DNA of 28,553 nt from a virus. The notes under the pieces are model-generated. The model saw only the letters and a list, made by a program, of their open reading frames with translations. It did not search any database and had not been told where the DNA came from. The position numbers and the translations under genes were made by a program. This document shows positions 4,222 to 28,553 of the stretch, piece by piece (the first letter of the stretch is position 1; each line of letters opens with the position of its first letter). The stretch spans positions 1 to 28,553 of the IMG/VR virus record IMGVR_UViG_3300021375_000121; one strand, 5' to 3'.

Positions 4222-4647
4222 ATGGCAAGATATGATTCAGCAATAGTTAGCAACTCAAAGCGTAATTCAAGAAAGTTTAGTGATATTGACCTAAACTTTA
4301 CAAGAAATACGGTTACAAGTGATGTGGTTGTTGTAGAAGATGTTGTAGCTGTAAAAAGGGCGGTAAAGAATTTAGTTCAAACAGGTTATTATGAACGACC
4401 ATTTAATCCTGAATTAGGTTGTGGTATTAGAGAATTGTTATTTGAAAACTTTACACCTATGACTAAAGTTTTCTTGCAAAAGAAAATTGAAGAAGTATTA
4501 AAAAATTTTGAACCTAGAATAGAATTAACTAGTGTTCAGGTAGATGACGACCAAGATGGTAATAGATTGGTAGTGGATATTTACTTTTATGTAATTGGAA
4601 CACCAGGTCCACAATCAGTATCAACATTCTTACAAAGGTTAAGATAA
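4222..4647 (+). CDS. gp25: baseplate wedge subunit gp25
   Basis: 141 residues, close to T4 gp25 (132). The gp25/lysozyme-like wedge signature is clear: V-x-x-A-V-K-N-L-V-Q-T near residue 50, then YYERPFNPELGCGIRELLFE and NFTP, followed by the two-strand C-terminus. gp25 sits at the inner baseplate next to gp6 and the sheath and primes sheath assembly; no lysozyme activity is expected despite the name. It is one nucleotide from gp6, matching the conserved 25-6 order in marine T4-like phages. Confidence 0.93.
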   Translation: MARYDSAIVSNSKRNSRKFSDIDLNFTRNTVTSDVVVVEDVVAVKRAVKNLVQTGYYERPFNPELGCGIRELLFENFTPMTKVFLQKKIEEVLKNFEPRIELTSVQVDDDQDGNRLVVDIYFYVIGTPGPQSVSTFLQRLR

Positions 4648-20630: not shown

Positions 20631-21359
20631 ATGAATATATTATTAACAGGCGGTGATGGCTTTATAGGTAAGAACCTACAAAATCATTTAAGCAAAAATC
20701 ACACAGTAATAAACATAGATAAAATTTCAGGTTACGATTTATTAACTTGTGATTTACACTATAACGCAGACGTTGTTATTCATTTAGCAGGTCTATCTGG
20801 CGTTAGAGATAGTATGCAATATCCTGAAGAATATTGGAAACAAAATGTAATTGCTGGTCAAAGACTATTTGATTTCTTTAAAGATACTAAAATACTGTAT
20901 GCGAGTTCATCAACAGCATATGAACCTTGGAGAAATCCTTATGCAATGAGTAAATACAGTCTTGAACAAATTGCACCAGAGAATAGTGTAGGTATGAGAT
21001 TTACAACTGTTTATGGTCCTAATGCAAAACCAAATATGTTGATACCTAAAATATTACAAAATGATGTATCATATATTAATACAAATCACAAAAGAGATTT
21101 TATACACGTAGATGATATTATTAGTGCAATTGATATATTAATGATAGAAAATGTAAAAGGTGTATTAGATATAGGCACAGGTCATACTCACGACTTGGTA
21201 GATATTGTTGATTACTTTAAGATTGATTGCGAAAGACGTATAGGCGGCGAAAACGAAAGACTGGATAATACAGCTGATACAACTACACTAAATAGATTAG
21301 GGTGGAAACCTAAAGTAAATTTATATAACTATATAAAGGAAATGAGAAATGTTAACTGA
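20631..21359 (+). CDS. NAD-dependent sugar epimerase/dehydratase
   Basis: An extended short-chain dehydrogenase/reductase of 242 residues, shorter than the usual 300-340. The Rossmann motif is G7-G8-D9-G10-F11-I12-G13. The catalytic set is S93/S94/T95 and Y104-x3-K108 (PYAMSKYSLEQ), followed by the substrate loop MRFTTVYGPNAKPN. These mark UDP-glucose 4-epimerase-type enzymes acting on nucleotide sugars. The shortness lies mostly in the C-terminal substrate domain, so its substrate is uncertain. No Shine-Dalgarno; translation may depend on coupling to the structural gene 9 nt upstream. It points into the sugar operon at 21824-28553 and probably feeds it. Confidence 0.85.
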   Translation: MNILLTGGDGFIGKNLQNHLSKNHTVINIDKISGYDLLTCDLHYNADVVIHLAGLSGVRDSMQYPEEYWKQNVIAGQRLFDFFKDTKILYASSSTAYEPWRNPYAMSKYSLEQIAPENSVGMRFTTVYGPNAKPNMLIPKILQNDVSYINTNHKRDFIHVDDIISAIDILMIENVKGVLDIGTGHTHDLVDIVDYFKIDCERRIGGENERLDNTADTTTLNRLGWKPKVNLYNYIKEMRNVN

Positions 21360-21846
21360 AGTAAATTTAAAAGAACATTTGATTAAAGCATATTTTGTCA
21401 ATGAAGACCGAACCGTTATAGAAGTATTATATACTTCAAAAGATTTCAAAGAAAATCATAGTCATATTGTTGAATACGACCCAAATCATCCTGATTGTAA
21501 AGCTTTATTAGAAGTAATGAGTTTAGATGACCTACACGAGTCGACTTATAATCAGAAAAAAGAAGAGCGAAAACTATTTGAAGCAGAGGCTACCAAAATT
21601 GCTCAAAAAATAGGCCTGGTTTTTGATATGAATAAACTTGATACTAAATTTTATCCTCTATTGGTAAAGTCTATATTTGAAGAAGTTAATAATGAAGACC
21701 ATTTATTTGCATTAAAACTGGCATTATTTGAAGTAGAAAAAATCAGAGATTCTAAAAATACTGATTTAAAAAAGAAGCTAAGACAATCTAAAACAAAGTC
21801 AGATTGTTTATTAAATGCTTTAACTATTGTTCAAGAAAATAGTTAG
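21349..21846 (+). CDS. conserved phage protein, 165 residues
   Basis: Overlaps the epimerase by 11 nt, with AGGA upstream. The N-terminal half (MLTEVNLKEHLIKAYFVNED, then a 'YDPNHPDCKALLEVMSLDDLHEST' region) resembles a conserved protein of marine T4-like phages of unknown function. The middle is a charged helix (NQKKEERKLFEAEATKIAQK) and the C-terminus is helical and basic. Its last 23 bp overlap the end of the convergent leftward glycosyltransferase-like gene. Confidence 0.65.
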   Translation: MLTEVNLKEHLIKAYFVNEDRTVIEVLYTSKDFKENHSHIVEYDPNHPDCKALLEVMSLDDLHESTYNQKKEERKLFEAEATKIAQKIGLVFDMNKLDTKFYPLLVKSIFEEVNNEDHLFALKLALFEVEKIRDSKNTDLKKKLRQSKTKSDCLLNALTIVQENS

Positions 21847-22393
21847 ACCACCAACCAGTCCAACCTTTTTCCATCAGATGTTGCATTTGTCCTAAAGTTA
21901 CCATACTAGCATTTTCTGGTGGTTTATATAAATTATTTTTTATAGATGGACAGAATTTACCAAACTTTTGATATTCTATCTCACGATAATAAAACTCATC
22001 ACTACCTTTATTATATACTTTCAAATATTCTTTATCATTTGATTTAAATTTTTTCCATATGTGAGATACGTCACCTGTCCAAGATACAACAGACGAGTTC
22101 AAAGGTGTATGTGCTGGTTCTCTCCACCAACTATCATCTAGTAATGTAAAGTGATGTCTTCTTAAATCAGGTAACTTATCATATATTACCATATCTAAAT
22201 CAAAATATATATTTTGGCCATCTTTAAATTTATTATACATTTGAAGTTTGTTATACCAATTGCCATAAAGGTCTTTAGTAATAACTTCAAACTTATCATA
22301 TTTAATACCTGAATACGTGTCAATCATATGTTTTAGATTCTTGACGTGCCAATCTGTATAATAATCACCAAACTTACAACATATTATTCTCAT
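21824..22393 (-). CDS. glycosyltransferase-like protein (GT-A, DxD)
   Basis: 189 residues from the ATG at 22393, chosen because it overlaps the upstream stop as ATGA; a TTG two codons earlier is possible but less likely. The GT-A fold pattern is present: an N-terminal strand (MRIICCKFGDYYTDWHVKNL), then a hydrophobic strand ending in D65-L66-D67 (IYFDLDMVIYD), the usual metal and nucleotide-sugar site. The C-terminal part is rich in Trp and Tyr (DDSWWREP, EKGWTGWWSN). Small phage glycosyltransferases of this kind occur in cyanomyoviruses. It is the last gene of the leftward sugar operon. Confidence 0.7.
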   Translation of the reverse strand: MRIICCKFGDYYTDWHVKNLKHMIDTYSGIKYDKFEVITKDLYGNWYNKLQMYNKFKDGQNIYFDLDMVIYDKLPDLRRHHFTLLDDSWWREPAHTPLNSSVVSWTGDVSHIWKKFKSNDKEYLKVYNKGSDEFYYREIEYQKFGKFCPSIKNNLYKPPENASMVTLGQMQHLMEKGWTGWWSNYFLEQ

Positions 22394-23124
22394 ATCCAAT
22401 TATCTCTTATAAATTTTTCATTACTATCGTGTATAGTTTTTCCAGGTCCAGCAAAGTTAATCACTTTAATATTTTTATGAGGGTCTCCCATAATCATATA
22501 ATCAGCTTCGAATTTATTACAATACATTTTTTGTAAATCTAAATTTTTCTTATAATTATAATCATATAGACCTAACCATTCACCTGGTACCGTACTAACC
22601 TTTATATCTTTGTCTAACATACATTGATAAACATAATTTTGTTCGCCATAATATTTTTTATGAACAATACCCTCATTATAATAAAATAATTGCCAGTATT
22701 CAGGATTTTCAATAAATCTATCCCATACAAATTTCAATCTACCTGATTTAAATTTATAAAAACTACCGTTGATTTTTAAATTCTTATCCCACCAAGAGTT
22801 ATAACTAATTAGTTCGTTTGAGTGTACAGGATGATTTATTAATTTTTCTACATCTCCTACAATCACTTGGTCAATATCCATAATTATAATATCATCATCT
22901 GGTTCTTGATATGCAAAATTAGGACTAAAAAACTTTAACTTATGCCAATGTTTTTTAATTGAGTTGTGTTTTAGAGGTAATACTAAATCAGCCTCAACGT
23001 CTGTATCACTTAAACATATAAACTCGAAAGGCACTTTACTATTTCTTTTTAAACTTCTATATAATTTACTTACATAATCTGGTGTATAAATGCCATCAAA
23101 ATATACGGTACATATCTTAAGCAC
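22390..23124 (-). CDS. glycosyltransferase-like protein (GT8-like, DxD), GTG start
   Basis: 244 residues. The start is GTG at 23124, supported by GGAG nine bases upstream and the lack of any Met codon before residue 82; it overlaps the preceding gene by 8 nt. The N-terminus (MLKICTVYFDGIYTPDYVSK) and the strand with D83-I84-D85 (IIIMDIDQVIVGD) are of the GT8/GT-A type. The C-terminal VINFAGPGKTIHD resembles the 'H-F-x-G-x-x-K-P-W' element of GT8 enzymes, with one conserved His. It likely adds a sugar from a nucleotide donor. Confidence 0.75.
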   Translation of the reverse strand: MLKICTVYFDGIYTPDYVSKLYRSLKRNSKVPFEFICLSDTDVEADLVLPLKHNSIKKHWHKLKFFSPNFAYQEPDDDIIIMDIDQVIVGDVEKLINHPVHSNELISYNSWWDKNLKINGSFYKFKSGRLKFVWDRFIENPEYWQLFYYNEGIVHKKYYGEQNYVYQCMLDKDIKVSTVPGEWLGLYDYNYKKNLDLQKMYCNKFEADYMIMGDPHKNIKVINFAGPGKTIHDSNEKFIRDNWI

Positions 23125-23944
23125 TTATATTTCTCCAAACTATATCAAATCTTTTATTAATAGCGTGTATAAATTTTATATCTTTTGGTATAAACAACCA
23201 GTTATCAAAAAAATAATGCCATTTATTATCTAACCATTGAACAGATACATTATTTTGTTTTAACTTGACACTAAATAAAGTTTCATTATCATATCCAAAG
23301 TAATCAACAATTTTTTTAGGAAAAATAGATGTATCAAATTTTAGTTGTGTCATCTTAACCATATCTTGGTCAAACTGATTAAAGTATCCTAATTTGTATA
23401 AGTGTGATTTATTAATACCAATAATACCAGTATTAATTACATCATTTTCGGTTTTCATTCCCATATCAAACAACATAGCTTGTGTGTTATAATATTTTGA
23501 TGTTGGACTCCTGATTGTTTGTGTTTCTTCAGTTATTTGACTCATTCCTAATACTTTATCATTGTTATTTAAAACAGCAATACCTTTAGATAAGTCCCAT
23601 ACCTCAAAAAAGTTTTCTTTTGTATTAGGCACAACATCAAAGTCAAGAAATAGTATCTCATCATACTTTGATGAAAACTTATATAGAAGAAATATTTTAT
23701 AAAAGTTTATAATATTATAAGTGGTAAGAAAAGGATATTTACTTTTCATTTCATCATAGTAATCAAGATACTTATTTACCATAACAAAATCAACACCAAT
23801 ACTATCAGCGTATTCTTTTTTACAATCTACCAATTTTTGGTAATTATCATTCATTTCTTTTTTGGTGTTTAAGTTTGTTTCAATATTATCTACAAACTGG
23901 TCGTCTGGCACCTCAACATATAAACTAAAGATTAATCTATTCAT
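23117..23944 (-). CDS. glycosyltransferase-like protein (GT-A, DxD)
   Basis: 275 residues from the ATG at 23944 (MNRLIFSLYVEVPD); an upstream in-frame TTG is rejected. D101-F102-D103 (ILFLDFDVVPN) is the donor and metal site. The sequence 'LTTYNIINFYKIFLLYKFSSKYDEILFLDFD' has the helix-then-DxD order of capsule and LPS glycosyltransferases, and 'INTGIIGINKSH' matches the 'N-x-G-x-x' acceptor-side motif. It overlaps the upstream methyltransferase by 8 nt. Acceptor unknown. Confidence 0.78.
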   Translation of the reverse strand: MNRLIFSLYVEVPDDQFVDNIETNLNTKKEMNDNYQKLVDCKKEYADSIGVDFVMVNKYLDYYDEMKSKYPFLTTYNIINFYKIFLLYKFSSKYDEILFLDFDVVPNTKENFFEVWDLSKGIAVLNNNDKVLGMSQITEETQTIRSPTSKYYNTQAMLFDMGMKTENDVINTGIIGINKSHLYKLGYFNQFDQDMVKMTQLKFDTSIFPKKIVDYFGYDNETLFSVKLKQNNVSVQWLDNKWHYFFDNWLFIPKDIKFIHAINKRFDIVWRNISA

Positions 23945-24572
23945 ATTTACCAACTAGAAGAAATCTAGTACCTCTTTCGTCTAAAATTTTATCTTCTACC
24001 ATAACCTTTGCATTTTTAGGTAATTGGTATTTAAATTCTTCAATAGATGATACGCAATTAATATGTCCTTCAATATCATACATATTGTTAGATTGATAAG
24101 CAAAGTAAGCTCCTTTTATTCTTTCTGACCAAGGATTTTTATATTCAGGTGCAGGTCCCCATTGTTTCATAGGCTTCATATGTTCGCAAGAAGTATTAAT
24201 AAACAAGTTTGCTGTTTCATATTGATTTCTAAATACATTAAATATATTGTCTGTAATAAAATCAACATTAAAATCTTTAAATAGATTATACTTTGCTCTA
24301 CTAATTACTTTAGCGTCTTGGTCTATACAAGTAATCTTTTTAACTTTATTGTAAAAAGCAGGTATTAATATACTACCATACCAACTACCAAATATGACTA
24401 TCTCTGAATCTTTTGTTAGAATATTTAATTTATCTATATGTTCAACTAATTTAAGTTTAGATTTAAACTGATTAGGACTAAAAGAATCCAATAAGTCTTT
24501 ATCTTCTCTCACTTCTCTCATAGAAGAAGATATTAAGTTATTTAATATTGTTTGTAAAAATTTTATGTCCAT
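23937..24572 (-). CDS. class I SAM-dependent methyltransferase-like protein
   Basis: 211 residues. Residues 57-70 (EIVIFGSWYGSILI) form a variant of the SAM-binding Gly-rich loop, and strand 2 ends at the acidic D84 (KITCIDQDAKVISRAK), the usual ribose-binding position. NLFINTSCEHM (about 122-132) is in the place of motif IV. The Gly loop (G62-x-x-x-G66) is less canonical than G-x-G-x-G, so activity is likely but not certain. It overlaps the nitroreductase-like gene by 10 nt. In this operon, methylation of a sugar or glycan end is a reasonable guess. Confidence 0.7.
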   Translation of the reverse strand: MDIKFLQTILNNLISSSMREVREDKDLLDSFSPNQFKSKLKLVEHIDKLNILTKDSEIVIFGSWYGSILIPAFYNKVKKITCIDQDAKVISRAKYNLFKDFNVDFITDNIFNVFRNQYETANLFINTSCEHMKPMKQWGPAPEYKNPWSERIKGAYFAYQSNNMYDIEGHINCVSSIEEFKYQLPKNAKVMVEDKILDERGTRFLLVGKYE

Positions 24573-25144
24573 TTTATTACACTATCAATATCTGGTTTAA
24601 AGTCACCTTTTTCTACTCTTTTTGTTTTAGGATATCCAAATTGCATACTAAACAAAACTATCTCACCTTTATGTTTCCATCCAGGCATATCAAAACATAA
24701 CTGATATGAAACTCCAAAATTATTCTCCATACATAATCCAGTTAATATTGTTGCAAACATACCAACTTCTATGGATACTTGTGGAGCCTCTTTTAAATAA
24801 TGTTCTTTTTGAGTACACCTGTGTGAGTGTCCTTTTTCTAATAATTTTTGAACAAAGTCATTAGGATTATCAACGTGTCTCATTGTAAATATAATATTAT
24901 ACGGTGCTAAAATATTAAAATTATGACCACCGCCAGTTTGTTTTTTAATGTATTCAAAAATCTTTTTCTTTTCTTCTTTTCTTTCTGGACCTAAAACGAA
25001 AACATTGTATGGCACAAGATTTTGTTTAGAAGCTACTAACTCAAAGGTCGTATCAATTATTTCTTTTGCTTTTTGTTTATCTGGCAATATATAATCACTA
25101 TACTTATATACCTGGTACCTTTTTTTAAATTCATCTGTAATCAT
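24563..25144 (-). CDS. nitroreductase-family (FMN) protein
   Basis: 193 residues. ELVASKQNLVPYNVFVL (about 35-51) matches the FMN-binding 'S-x-x-N-x-x-P-x-x' region, though the usual Arg is missing. SIEVGMFATILTGLCMENNF (about 124-143) is the conserved helix ('D-x-x-x-x-x-x-x-L-x-A-x-x-x-G-L-G'), and MQFGYPKTK is the 'G-Y-P' end element. Such proteins reduce nitro, enone or flavin substrates, and some act as dehydrogenases in natural-product pathways. The start overlaps the carbamoyltransferase stop as ATGA. What it reduces in a sugar operon is unknown. Confidence 0.7.
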   Translation of the reverse strand: MITDEFKKRYQVYKYSDYILPDKQKAKEIIDTTFELVASKQNLVPYNVFVLGPERKEEKKKIFEYIKKQTGGGHNFNILAPYNIIFTMRHVDNPNDFVQKLLEKGHSHRCTQKEHYLKEAPQVSIEVGMFATILTGLCMENNFGVSYQLCFDMPGWKHKGEIVLFSMQFGYPKTKRVEKGDFKPDIDSVIKWT

Positions 25145-26625
25145 TTTTTTATTACCCTATCGTTTATTACCAATATATTTAATGCAGTTTTTCTAAAAGT
25201 TTTTATAGCCTGTTGTGGTGTTTCTACAATTGGTTCTTGACAATTAAAACTAGTATTTAATAACATTGGTATACCTGTTATTTTATAAAATTCATTTATA
25301 ATATTATAAAACTTTTCATTAAACTCTTTATTGACCGTTTGTATTCTTGCAGTACCATCAATGTGAGTTATGCCTGGTACTTTATCAGATTTAACTTTAC
25401 ATATACGAGACATAAAAGGACTAGGTTGATTAGTGTCAAAATATTCTTTGTAATGTTCCTCTAATACTGCTGGTGCAAATGGTCTAAAGTCTTCTCTCAT
25501 CTTTATAGTATGATTAATAATATCTTTTATATCAGGATTACGAGGGTCTGCTAATATGCTTCTATTGCCTAATGCACGATTGCCACTTTCTGAACGGTCT
25601 TGATACCAACCAACAATCTTGCCATCAGCAATAGATTGTGCTATATCCTTATAATTAAATTCTTCTCCGTACGTGTGTGGGTATGCGTGGCCACCAAATG
25701 TTTCTGACATATGAGTTTGTTTGTTCAAGTTATAATATGCGTGTTGATAAACACCTATTGCTTGGCCTTCATCACCAACAGCAGGTGGTACATAAACTTT
25801 TTCATAATGTTTTGTAAACTCTTCATTCATATATCCATTATATGCAACACCACCAGCAATACATAGATTGTCACAACTTTTTAATGGGTAAATATATTCT
25901 TTAATTTTATCTAATGTAATTTTTTGTAATGTAAATGCTAAGTCTTCTATACTATGTAATTTAATATACTCAAACTTTTTTTGTTTTTTTTCAGTAATAG
26001 TTCCACTCAATATTGTTTCAAATACATCATAGTAATATTGACTAAATTTACCATAACCTACTTTACCCATAAGTTTACTTGCACCTAGTGTTCCAAATCC
26101 AGTTAGATTAGACATATGATTCCATAACCAACCTATTGGCAATTCTTGTGATAAGTCTTTTATATCTCCGTCTTTGTTTACAAAGATACATCTGAATTTA
26201 GCACCAATGCCGTCAATGGCAAGTATATCTGATTTTTTAAAACCAGAATTTAAAAATGCATATGTGGCGTGAGATTGATGATGGTCACAATAATATACAT
26301 TATCTTTCATCACATAGTCAAACAACTTTTTAGGAACAAAATCAAGAAACTCTTGGTCGATAAGTTCTTTACACATTCTAATACCACCAACAGTATAAGA
26401 AAATGCTAGTACGCCTGTTTCTGGTTTATGAAAGTAATCTCTGACAAACTCATTATTTAATCTATAATCACTTGAATTTAAAATATCTGATTGATGAGCA
26501 TAAGCTTCAGCGTGATAAGGTAGATTATGTTTGAATCTACTGTATCTTTCTATCTGTCTATGTACTTGACCATCATAAACATTATGGTCGTGTAAATTTA
26601 AAGCAACAGCGTATATATTATGCAT
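25141..26625 (-). CDS. O-carbamoyltransferase (NodU/CmcH family)
   Basis: 494 residues (family usually 550-620). N-terminal Kae1-like domain: IERYSRFKHNLPYHA, the metal-site segment CDHHQSHATYAF (H115, H116, H119) and D138 (ILAIDGIGA). Then LTGFGTLGASKLMGKVGYG and CIAGGVAYNGYMNEEF. The C-terminal domain is recognised by RALGNRSILADPR, KMREDFRPFAPAVLEE and IPMLLNTSFNCQEPIVETP. These enzymes move a carbamoyl group from carbamoyl phosphate via ATP to a sugar hydroxyl, as in Nod-factor and antibiotic sugars. The missing length is in the N-terminal part before the His motif. The Shine-Dalgarno GAGGA is clear, and the start overlaps the radical SAM gene by 8 nt. Confidence 0.9.
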   Translation of the reverse strand: MHNIYAVALNLHDHNVYDGQVHRQIERYSRFKHNLPYHAEAYAHQSDILNSSDYRLNNEFVRDYFHKPETGVLAFSYTVGGIRMCKELIDQEFLDFVPKKLFDYVMKDNVYYCDHHQSHATYAFLNSGFKKSDILAIDGIGAKFRCIFVNKDGDIKDLSQELPIGWLWNHMSNLTGFGTLGASKLMGKVGYGKFSQYYYDVFETILSGTITEKKQKKFEYIKLHSIEDLAFTLQKITLDKIKEYIYPLKSCDNLCIAGGVAYNGYMNEEFTKHYEKVYVPPAVGDEGQAIGVYQHAYYNLNKQTHMSETFGGHAYPHTYGEEFNYKDIAQSIADGKIVGWYQDRSESGNRALGNRSILADPRNPDIKDIINHTIKMREDFRPFAPAVLEEHYKEYFDTNQPSPFMSRICKVKSDKVPGITHIDGTARIQTVNKEFNEKFYNIINEFYKITGIPMLLNTSFNCQEPIVETPQQAIKTFRKTALNILVINDRVIKK

Positions 26626-27442
26626 TTAAAATCCTCGCATATTTTCTAAAAGGAAAATGTCCTTTTGGTGGTACAAATTCAGTACAAGTTTTGCAATAGT
26701 TTTCATATTTAAATAACTGCCAATTCATCATCTTGTCCACATTCTCTTGTGTTAAGTCAAAAGTTTTAGATAACTCTTTGTTGTTTGCAAACTTCTTACT
26801 ACAATGTACAATATGTTTCTTTTCAAAATCTATTACAGGCACTTGTGGAAAAGCTGCACACATTTTTCTATCTATCTCTTCAGCCTGTATAACGTCTGTA
26901 AATTCTGGTGACCTACCATTAAATGCCTTCCACATTGTATTCTTGTGATTCAACTTCTCTAATACTTCAGGATATTTGTCTTTATATTTAAAATAATTTG
27001 GTGTTCTAACTACCACATTAAAGTTGTTGTAATCATTTTCTGGTACATAGTCAAAGTTACCTAGTTTCTTAACTTCATCTTCATACCAATCGAGTATATT
27101 GTGTTCAACATATAATATATCTTTATCTTCTAATATATGTGGATATCTTTTACGTATAAATGAATTAGATAATACTGAACATACAAAGTTTGGATACTTT
27201 TTAATTTCTGTAATAACTTCATCTAAATTTTTTATTAGGCCTGGCTCACCACCTAATAGATTAATTCTTACCTTATAATCTTTTAGGAAATCTAACGTTT
27301 GTTTTAAGAATTGCATATCAACGGTAAGGTTACGCATTTCTAAAGTATAACTTGTACAGTAGTGACAATCTTTATTACAAGACATAGATAGAAAGAAATC
27401 TATCGCTCGGTAATTATCTTGTATTTCTTTAAATGTTTTCAT
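26618..27442 (-). CDS. radical SAM enzyme
   Basis: 274 residues. The [4Fe-4S] motif is C22-x3-C26-x2-C29 (SMSCNKDCHYCTSY), followed by the SAM-contacting GGEPGL motif at about 64-69. The C-terminal part has more cysteines (C197 region, HCSKKF, YCKTCTEF), which may bind an auxiliary cluster as in SPASM/twitch proteins. In a sugar operon it could act on an amino sugar or glycan precursor, or modify a peptide; nothing in the sequence decides this. It overlaps the unknown 102-residue gene by 14 nt. Confidence 0.85.
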   Translation of the reverse strand: MKTFKEIQDNYRAIDFFLSMSCNKDCHYCTSYTLEMRNLTVDMQFLKQTLDFLKDYKVRINLLGGEPGLIKNLDEVITEIKKYPNFVCSVLSNSFIRKRYPHILEDKDILYVEHNILDWYEDEVKKLGNFDYVPENDYNNFNVVVRTPNYFKYKDKYPEVLEKLNHKNTMWKAFNGRSPEFTDVIQAEEIDRKMCAAFPQVPVIDFEKKHIVHCSKKFANNKELSKTFDLTQENVDKMMNWQLFKYENYCKTCTEFVPPKGHFPFRKYARILNA

Positions 27443-27737
27443 AATTTATCATACCAAAAAAGAATTTGTTAAAGGCTATTTTCAACTTATACTTTGGATT
27501 ATCATTTAACATAGCAGTCATATCAATCCATTCGGGCATATGATATGTTTTATCAACTAAATGGTGGTAAATATCTTCAACATCTTTATCAATTAAACTT
27601 TCGTCAAACATATTATCACCTAAAACTTTGTACATAACCTGACACAACTGAATAGGACACCTATTAGTAATATCAATCATATTACCTTTTTTGTTTATAT
27701 AACTAAATGCAGTTAATGAATCGTTGTGTTCTATCAT
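27429..27737 (-). CDS. unknown protein, 102 residues, in the sugar operon
   Basis: Starts MIEHNDSLTAFSYINKKGNM with its ATG overlapping the aminotransferase stop (ATGA) and its end overlapping the radical SAM gene. The core NMIDITNRCPIQLCQVMYKVL is a mixed strand-helix segment with a C-x3-C pair, and the C-terminus is aromatic (KFFFGMINYENI). No family is recognised. Position between the aminotransferase and the radical SAM enzyme suggests a small partner of one of them. Confidence 0.65.
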   Translation of the reverse strand: MIEHNDSLTAFSYINKKGNMIDITNRCPIQLCQVMYKVLGDNMFDESLIDKDVEDIYHHLVDKTYHMPEWIDMTAMLNDNPKYKLKIAFNKFFFGMINYENI

Positions 27738-28553
27738 ACCAATAATAAGATTGTGTTAATTACTCTATCTTGTTCCTCTTTTTTCATATACGGATGTAAT
27801 GGTAAAGTCAATATAGTATCACATACAATCTGACTTATAAAACTTGTATCTTTCTTATGTTCTATATTTTCATACATCTTATTTGCAGAGATAGGTTTAT
27901 CATAATGTATTTGGCCTATCTTTTCTTTTACTCTATCTCGTACCTCTTTGTTTTGAAACCTAACTACATATTTGTGGTAGTTATGATTTAATTCTGGTGT
28001 ATTAGGTTGTACTGTAACCACATCTTGTAATTGTTCATCATAATATTTTGCTAGTTCTTGTCGTTTACTAATATAATCATCTAACTTATTTAATCTATAA
28101 TTAATTACTTCAGCATTAAACAATAACATTTTAGAGTTGTAACCTAGATGTTTGCCCTCACCGTGTTTTCTTAATCTCTTAAATATATCAGTATCACCAT
28201 CTGTTAAGATAGCTCCACCACCAGCGATACCTGATACAACTTTATTAGCATTAAAACTTAATGTAGATAAGTCACCTATTGTTCCAGCCTTATTGCCATT
28301 ATAACTGGATCCTAGAGATTGGCAAGCGTCCTCAATAAAATGTATCTTTTTTGCTTGACAAAACTGTTTAATTGTGCTAGTATCTGACATATTACCAAAT
28401 AGATGAGGATATATGATTGCTTTTGTATTATCTGTACACATATCTTCAATACTTTTCATAGACATATGATAAGACAATATATCAATATCACAAAATATAG
28501 GTGTAGCGCCGGTCATTGATATAACACTCGCAGTTGAAATCCAAGAGAAGTTA
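27734..28553 (-). CDS. DegT/DnrJ/EryC1/StrS-type PLP aminotransferase, C-terminal part (cut by window edge)
   Basis: The reading frame is open to the window end, and the codons before the first Met (NFSWISTASVIS then MTGATPIFCDID) fit the DegT family pattern 'P-x-F-T-x-x-A-T-A-x-A-I-x-x-x-G-A-x-P-V-F-x-D-I-D', so the true start lies outside. Numbering from that Met, D63 in FIEDACQSLGS contacts the PLP ring nitrogen and K92 in FNANKVVSGIAGGGA is the Schiff-base lysine. These enzymes aminate keto sugars bound to nucleotides, a step in building amino-deoxy sugars. It is the first visible gene of the leftward operon. Confidence 0.88.
   Translation of the reverse strand, partial: NFSWISTASVISMTGATPIFCDIDILSYHMSMKSIEDMCTDNTKAIIYPHLFGNMSDTSTIKQFCQAKKIHFIEDACQSLGSSYNGNKAGTIGDLSTLSFNANKVVSGIAGGGAILTDGDTDIFKRLRKHGEGKHLGYNSKMLLFNAEVINYRLNKLDDYISKRQELAKYYDEQLQDVVTVQPNTPELNHNYHKYVVRFQNKEVRDRVKEKIGQIHYDKPISANKMYENIEHKKDTSFISQIVCDTILTLPLHPYMKKEEQDRVINTILLLV

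Follow-up and report, generated by a model that had tools for sequence, protein, structure and literature searches.

A syntenic operon for probable sugar tailoring and glycosyl transfer in T4-like phages related to the SAR11 phage Mosig

The stretch of DNA analyzed here (the window) is the whole of IMG/VR record IMGVR_UViG_3300021375_000121, a 28,553-base fragment of a T4-like phage, and its minus strand carries nine leftward open reading frames (ORFs; 21824-28552) that belong to one conserved, syntenic operon, kept together in related phages beyond chance. The operon probably specifies a sugar-tailoring and sugar-transfer pathway of some kind. The favored reading of its purpose, at somewhat short of an even chance, is that a host-supplied nucleotide sugar becomes a decorated amino sugar that is placed on the envelope glycan of the infected SAR11 cell. 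An earlier note, made from the letters alone, had described nine leftward overlapping genes, and the ORF coordinates bear this out: all nine are present and neighbors overlap throughout, at the places and sizes it gave, by 4-17 nt depending on the choice of start codon. In blastn, 20631-28553 matches the SAR11 phage Mosig EXVC030M (95% query coverage, 73.8% identity); six other records match over 1-2% of the query only. The nine genes and their two plus-strand neighbors are as follows.

27734..28552, minus strand: DegT/DnrJ/EryC1 aminotransferase, 272 aa of about 346, its gene truncated at the 5′ end by the limit of the record
27429..27737, minus strand: DegT partner domain, 102 aa; the gene that the earlier note left as an unknown
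26618..27442, minus strand: radical S-adenosylmethionine (SAM) enzyme, 274 aa, with four C-terminal cysteines in a Twitch-like set; PF04055
25141..26625, minus strand: NodU/TobZ-type O-carbamoyltransferase, 494 aa; PF16861 and PF02543
24563..25144, minus strand: nitroreductase-fold oxidoreductase, probably using flavin mononucleotide (FMN), 193 aa; structure model and PF00881 in the family
23937..24572, minus strand: class I SAM-dependent methyltransferase, 211 aa; MJ0882 profile match
23117..23953, minus strand: glycosyltransferase GT3, GT8-related; PF01501 in family members
22390..23124, minus strand: glycosyltransferase GT2; phrog_1962
21824..22399, minus strand: glycosyltransferase GT1, the last gene of the operon; phrog_1962
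21349..21846, plus strand: conserved protein of unknown function paired with the epimerase; 49% identical to Mosig_00095
20631..21359, plus strand: short SDR nucleotide-sugar epimerase, 242 aa; PF01370, phrog_540

Conservation and distribution of the operon

Relatives were collected from IMG/VR by two scans, one with the radical SAM protein, from which the best 80 of 155 relatives were taken as loci (L numbers below), and a second anchored on GT1, which gave the best 80 of 192. Family hidden Markov models (HMMs) built from the radical SAM loci were used to label all ORFs, and counts are taken only over loci with enough sequence; the loci are not independent, as they include near-copies and contigs common to both scans. 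Around the radical SAM gene, DegT is present in 73/73 loci, the carbamoyltransferase in 64/68, a downstream nitroreductase in 42/44, and the methyltransferase, GT1, GT2 and GT3 in 44/44 each. In the GT1-anchored scan, 8.5 kb or more of upstream sequence is available at 38 loci, with DegT in 35, the radical SAM gene in 35, the carbamoyltransferase in 36, and the methyltransferase and all three glycosyltransferases in every one. Three GT1-anchored loci without DegT (L120, L158, L160) contain more intervening genes and may start too late.

Gene order is kept in 38/38 of these GT1-anchored loci. The comparison of gene order among related phages that the earlier note had proposed thus finds conservation, and its view of a sugar-modifying and glycosyl-transfer operon that is kept as one unit and differs from a standard lipopolysaccharide (LPS) set stands; genes scattered singly in unrelated places, which it had named as counting against that view, were looked for across the IMG/VR loci and not encountered. 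All operon genes are under purifying selection, with ratios of nonsynonymous to synonymous substitution (dN/dS) of 0.03-0.41 against the near relative L005. The radical SAM gene has the lowest ratio, 0.03, and the highest are 0.30 for the methyltransferase and 0.41 for the nitroreductase, which is not an ortholog in this pair.

The window holds the 3′ part of the operon, whose head lies beyond the window end, and relatives show at least 1-2 further upstream genes. A GT-B-like gene precedes the shared set in 61/61 relatives, an SGNH-like gene in 59/61 and a radical SAM core gene in 38/61, the first two labels being readings of the sequence and the GT-B-like protein being without a Pfam or PDB match.

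Among 50,697 phage records, that of Mosig alone has a relative of the radical SAM protein, and the same is true of the nitroreductase; carbamoyltransferase relatives occur in 143 phage records, 142 of them below 60% identity. When the radical SAM alignment was used to scan 84,980 genomes of bacteria and archaea, by short peptide patterns that distant cellular relatives may escape, it returned three loci, all on contigs of metagenome-assembled genomes (MAGs). Two of these (L085, L086) have phage structural genes beside the operon, and the third (L084, 7.6 kb long) carries nothing but operon genes, arranged as in the phages. In the scanned data, the radical SAM enzyme is almost virus-only.

The radical SAM enzyme

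The names DegT, radical SAM and NodU-type carbamoyltransferase, already proposed in the earlier note, are firm and agree with Pfam and PHROG matches. PF04055 is found on the window radical SAM protein at 33.2 bits against a cut-off of 29.5, and both the CX3CX2C motif (C22/C26/C29) and four further cysteines (C195/C214/C250/C253) are invariant in 70/70 distinct members. The arrangement, CX3CX2C plus C-gap-C-gap-CX2C with no second cluster motif, is at the motif level that of Twitch enzymes; the conserved Gly in the motif wording of PMC6231123 is not seen in this family. One of the Twitch enzymes whose auxiliary cluster is fully ligated is BtrN, an aminocyclitol dehydrogenase that has four cysteine ligands and turns an aminocyclitol hydroxyl into a ketone (PMC9012708, PMC6231123). 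The four extra cysteines of the phage protein appear to fit a Twitch domain, a likeness to BtrN that is confined to the motif level.

Several other assignments were considered and rejected. The prokaryotic viperin model NF038283 scores 35.9 bits against a cut-off of 180 and covers residues 13-96 only; MoaA, QueE and RiPP (ribosomally synthesized and post-translationally modified peptide) maturase models match the core domain alone, far below cut-off, the score for the PapB model being 25 against a cut-off of 340.

Further radical SAM proteins occur in the relatives. Separate neighboring ORFs for a radical SAM core (about 211 aa) and a SPASM-like protein (about 112 aa) are found in Mosig (L082:17426-18389) and many IMG/VR loci, with the core first 51 times and the SPASM-like protein first 13 times, and may represent a split enzyme or a partner pair. 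Large twitch-domain radical SAM proteins (NF033640 above cut-off) are inserted in the operon at L022:16695-18101 and L052:1969-3576.

The DegT aminotransferase and its obligate partner

The window DegT protein matches the phrog_3139 aminotransferase at 1e-29 and is 72% identical to Mosig_00087, its full-length ortholog, on which PF01041 is found at 1e-74 (252 bits against a cut-off of 19.8). The lysine predicted to bind pyridoxal phosphate (K104 in SFNANK) is conserved in 71/71 distinct family members. The incomplete window protein falls below the NCBIfam equivalog cut-offs of both PseC (2e-36, 125.7 against 423.5 bits) and LegC (1e-35, 123.2 against 420 bits).

The small protein encoded directly after DegT has no Pfam family above cut-off, in keeping with the earlier designation, and can now be related to the aminotransferase: it is 47% identical over 83 residues to the C-terminus of the 419-aa DegT of Mosig. 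The same domain is fused to DegT in 46/73 loci (scored by a DegT length of at least 395 aa or an HMM match), follows it directly as a separate ORF in 27/73, and is missing in 0/73. Because it is fused or adjacent in all 73 loci, the domain is, by its sequence and position, an obligate partner of the aminotransferase, of unassigned role.

Carbamoyltransferase, nitroreductase-fold protein and methyltransferase

Two Pfam families are found above cut-off on the carbamoyltransferase (PF16861 at 6e-66 and PF02543 at 6e-20), which also matches phrog_1601 at 9e-108. The metal site HHxxH lies at residues 115-119, its histidines are kept in 66/66 distinct members, and the protein falls below the NodU equivalog cut-off (130 against 1000 bits).

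The nitroreductase-like protein of the earlier note is upheld by its structure model, with a predicted local distance difference test (pLDDT) score of 90; the top Foldseek matches are an NADH oxidase and nitroreductases with probability 1.00 and, among the matches listed, query TM (template modeling) scores of 0.56-0.72. PF00881 is found in 13/20 members of the family, the window protein itself having no Pfam nitroreductase match. On the model and these family matches, the fold assignment is firm. Its closest relatives (58% identical in L010 and Mosig, 45% in L031) lie at the operon head, before the GT-B-like gene (m83), whereas the window gene sits between the carbamoyltransferase and methyltransferase genes; this difference in placement indicates that tailoring genes move within the operon. 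These relatives were found as neighbors of the radical SAM gene. A viral-contig scan with the window nitroreductase itself gave 15 pattern matches and 0 relatives, the family being too variable for the method.

The methyltransferase named in the earlier note is likewise supported: a profile of 20 sequences matches MJ0882 at E 7e-7, and the window protein is 75% identical to Mosig_00090.

Tailoring genes appear exchangeable among relatives: nitroreductases vary, as do pairs of split radical SAM proteins, and PP-loop or FkbM genes turn up in individual loci. PP-loop proteins with a C-terminal Cys cluster are inserted in the operon at L022:13681-14535, L036:13333-14103 and L052:313-1161, the first two with weak QueC matches and the third by a reading of its sequence. 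On the opposite strand beside the operon, L057:3739-5997 encodes an M24 peptidase (PF00557) and a protein that reads as ATP-grasp-like, without a Pfam match.

Glycosyltransferases

GT2 matches the phrog_1962 glycosyltransferase at 3e-20 and GT1 matches it at 7e-6, while the GT8 family of Pfam (PF01501) is found in 10/19 members of the GT3 family, at best 5e-8. The DxD motif is invariant in all three families, as D67/D69 in 77/77 distinct members of GT1, D83/D85 in 73/73 of GT2 and D104/D106 in 71/71 of GT3. These matches, and DxD in every family, support the three GT-A proteins of the earlier note as glycosyltransferases; the window proteins themselves have no significant Pfam match: GT3 has none, and 0/17 members of the GT1 family and 0/17 of the GT2 family matched. 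A profile alignment of GT1 with GT2 gave E 4e-4 with an hhalign probability of only 35%. A relationship between GT2 and GT3 was considered, and profile comparison showed none.

The epimerase pair and the supply of sugar

The operon faces a convergent plus-strand epimerase (PF01370 at 1.7e-25; phrog_540 at 2e-45), as the earlier note had seen; it had missed the second plus-strand gene, 21349-21846, whose 3′ end overlaps the operon end by 23 nt. In the 41 radical SAM-anchored loci that show the epimerase, it is downstream and convergent in 29 and upstream and co-directional in 12, and the 21349..21846-type protein adjoins it in loci of either orientation.

Searches for nucleotide-sugar synthesis covered Mosig, which is 75.7% complete by CheckV, and two long relatives (109 and 82 kb); the three records are incomplete or fragments, so the absences that follow are provisional. 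NTP_transferase (PF00483) was not found in any of them, with a control positive in 14/14. PF16363 matches nothing but the epimerase in Mosig and the 109-kb relative, and it has 13 matches in a Pelagibacter MAG searched beside them, which is rich in dehydratase/epimerase genes. The full route to an amino sugar that the earlier note had envisaged is not borne out by these searches; since a phage nucleotidyltransferase was not found, the phage probably draws on nucleotide sugars of the host.

Genes for DNA modification were sought in the same three records. PF00303 (the thymidylate-synthase/hydroxymethylase family) was not found, with a control positive in 9/14; PF12851 (TET/JBP) gave no match, and its control matched nowhere.

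Promoters and timing

The late promoter of T4 is TATAAATA and that of cyanophage S-PM2 is NATAAATA (PMC2984593), and prediction of middle and late promoters is described as unsuccessful in these phages (PMC7029224). In Mosig, TATAAATA lies at most 45 nt upstream of 6/22 structural and 0/12 early-type genes (hand-chosen lists), and it also precedes the first gene of the operon. In the window the motif occurs four times, always on the plus strand, and three of these are directly before the ORFs at 4222, 9205 and 10841.

Upstream of the operon head, 45 distinct sequences were available, nine loci having been skipped (five cut before the start, three too near the edge, and L020 by motif). In 9/45 the operon comes directly after the epimerase pair on the same strand, without a motif. 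Of the 36 that remain, 25 have a host-type TTGA-N17-21-TATAAT promoter (shuffle mean 0.24, maximum 2), and 12 have TATAAATA at most 45 nt before the first gene (shuffle mean 0.98, maximum 5); both motifs are present in 2/36 and neither in 1/36 (L019, with one mismatch). The TATAAT ends 5 nt before the first-gene ATG in 17/25 of the sigma-70-like promoters (for example L055, L057, L064 and L066), which suggests leaderless transcripts in SAR11 phages.

When the three promoter settings are placed on the radical SAM tree (46 rows), 8 changes are counted, against a least possible 2 and a shuffled mean of 17.0. The window falls in a clade with five late-promoter rows, its nearest kin (support 100/99). 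The promoter of the window operon itself lies past the record end, so that “late” is its likely class by kinship. Expression would be early in most lineages and late in that of the window, and promoter class decides for neither the host envelope nor the virion as the target.

In Mosig, the intergenic region with TATAAATA is common to the glycan operon and a divergent operon (MT647606, 54701-60954; L082). The divergent operon encodes two Asp/Arg hydroxylase-like proteins, a GNAT protein, a methylase, a taurine-type dioxygenase, a peroxiredoxin, an FMN reductase, an aminotransferase and a desaturase.

Genomic setting and comparison with known systems

Mosig genes 82-96 (MT647606, PMC7892664) form an operon orthologous to that of the window. 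In both genomes VrlC (putative in the window), three proteins, and the epimerase with its unknown-function gene are on one strand, with the glycan genes convergent to them, and in Mosig tail fibers lie beyond. The Mosig operon differs in that DegT and its partner are fused, the nitroreductase is at the operon head and extra genes lie between; some of its deposited names are misleading (molybdenum cofactor enzymes, UDP-Ara4N aminotransferase). Its VrlC gene is at 74619-80756, the operon at 60990-71305, the tail fibers at 46.8-54.5 kb and the neck genes at 38-40 kb.

The window shows the baseplate side of this arrangement. From its left end it carries a putative 2-oxoglutarate (2OG) oxygenase/hydroxylase gene, three tRNAs, and then plus-strand baseplate genes that match gp25-, gp6- and gp8-type PHROGs, followed by a 2054-aa protein, taken as VrlC from its order and size, a small virion-structural protein (phrog_473), two more proteins, the epimerase and the unknown-function protein. 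GC content is 31-38% over 4-20 kb versus a lower 26-31% over the operon. The protein at 200-808 resembles a 2OG/Asp-Arg hydroxylase; it gave no match in a PHROG search at E 0.01, and an annotated counterpart occupies the corresponding place beside the tRNAs in Mosig.

Pelagimyophages are described as having a host recognition cluster (HRC) between VrlC and gp14, rich in glycosyltransferases, of which GT8 is the commonest, and two HRC genomes differ in radical SAM cassettes; the authors propose that this island changes the O-chain against superinfection (PMC7029224). The Mosig region, with its glycosyltransferases and tail fibers, is bounded by VrlC on one side and neck genes on the other; it occupies the place of the HRC, with which it also shares radical SAM cassettes that vary between close genomes. 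The HRC is described as hypervariable and non-syntenic, whereas here a syntenic core operon lies inside the island. This core comprises DegT and its partner, the Twitch-like radical SAM enzyme and the carbamoyltransferase, and the words “aminotransferase” and “carbamoyl” occur 0 times in the main text of PMC7029224.

A cluster in another SAR11 myophage, HTVC008M (NC_020484, 124-133 kb), combines a carbamoyltransferase and methyltransferase with a glycosyltransferase and a UDP-glucose dehydrogenase. It differs in that its carbamoyltransferase is only 30% identical to that of the window, no relative of the radical SAM protein is present, and the cluster lies elsewhere in the genome, by ribonucleotide reductase genes. 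In its likely mode of working, the combination of DegT and radical SAM proteins is comparable to the butirosin pair, in which BtrN, a Twitch enzyme with a fully Cys-ligated auxiliary cluster, acts with an aminotransferase that is presumably also of the DegT type. Unlike that pair, the genes here are phage-borne, accompany glycosyltransferases and a carbamoyltransferase, and show no sequence match to BtrN that could be detected. In the open-licence literature searched, which excluded subscription papers, the operon was not found described. Islands of this kind are already known, and the new elements are the syntenic core, the DegT partner, the almost virus-only Twitch-like radical SAM enzyme and the switched promoter class.

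A proposed pathway and its target

The observed gene families, their synteny, the purifying selection and the catalytic and promoter motifs can be assembled into a scheme in which each chemical step, the order of steps and the target are conjectural. The epimerase would adjust a host nucleotide sugar, and the Twitch-type radical SAM enzyme could then make a ketone from a hydroxyl by an oxidation like that of BtrN. Conversion of a ketone to an amine would fall to DegT and its partner domain, and the methyltransferase, the carbamoyltransferase and the nitroreductase-fold enzyme or enzymes may decorate the resulting amino sugar. Finally, the three DxD glycosyltransferases would transfer and extend the decorated sugar, with further sugars, on the envelope glycan. 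A conserved core with exchangeable tailoring genes is what a variable surface glycan would lead one to expect, and the host-type early promoter in 25/36 upstream sequences fits an action on the cell.

Several observations weigh against parts of this scheme. The clade of the window itself has late rather than early promoters, the location of the operon among tail and baseplate genes would equally fit virion modification, and no flippase, polymerase or ligase was recognized. For the radical SAM step, five PDB profile matches at E 0.1 include viperin and other radical SAM chains and no BtrN chain, and the structure model (15 sequences) has a mean pLDDT of 53, too low for a fold search. In this subfamily, moreover, neither fold nor function can be predicted from sequence networks (PMC6231123).

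The same chemistry could instead place the glycan on virion proteins, such as tail fibers or the baseplate, masking or diversifying them. Virion glycosylation has been proposed for phages with glycosyltransferase genes beside virion genes, and the Mosig operon lies between VrlC/baseplate and tail fiber genes. The T4-type TATAAATA before the first gene in 12/36 sequences, among them those of the window's five closest kin in the tree, is also consistent with this target, as are the 9 further sequences with the operon behind the epimerase pair, on the structural-gene strand and with no promoter motif of its own. Against it, 25/36 sequences have a host-type promoter, and coating a virion would not call for early expression. 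Modification of virion proteins is considered an unlikely but serious possibility.

It is improbable that the pathway yields a small molecule resembling an aminoglycoside or nucleoside, whether released or kept inside the cell, with effects on the host or on competitors. DegT, a Twitch radical SAM enzyme and a carbamoyltransferase do recall aminocyclitol antibiotic pathways, and PP-loop and M24 peptidase genes, with isochorismatase-like and ATP-grasp-like ones by sequence reading, occur in or beside the operons of some relatives; against this, three glycosyltransferases are kept in 44/44 loci, and no export or resistance gene was recognized. Still less probable is a RiPP-like route, in which the radical SAM enzyme, split SPASM pairs, nitroreductases and hydroxylases would modify a protein or peptide, of phage or host, to which sugars are added. 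SPASM/Twitch enzymes frequently act on peptides (PMC6231123), split radical SAM and SPASM-like pairs occur in many relatives and 2OG oxygenases are abundant beside the Mosig operon, yet the nine overlapping genes leave no room for a precursor-peptide ORF within the window operon, and the scores of maturase models are far under their cut-offs. Hypermodification clusters of other phages contain glycosyltransferase and aminotransferase genes along with carbamoyl and methyl ones, and the earlier note had listed DNA among possible targets; sugar modification of phage DNA bases is very improbable here, being disfavored by the absence of PF00303 from Mosig and the two long relatives and by the report that, in a set of more than 100 SAR11 genomes, restriction-modification is encoded in only one (PMC7029224).

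Implications for SAR11 phages

A more specific reading of the pathway, rather unlikely as a whole, is that infected cells alone make a virus-only sugar, its ketone formed on a host-supplied sugar by the Twitch radical SAM enzyme and aminated by DegT and its partner, in SAR11 phages that have kept this core while swapping tailoring genes and expression timing several times. If so, tailoring genes and timing, by host-type or T4-type late promoter, would have been exchanged repeatedly around a kept core. With the core operon, a vague description of glycosyltransferases within a variable island becomes a pathway whose enzymes have names and whose steps have a testable order, and the obligate DegT partner poses a concrete problem. 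Mosig, growing on HTCC1062, provides a cultured model of phages that infect some of the most abundant cells on Earth, the SAR11 bacteria, and timing and target pose a clear question in it.

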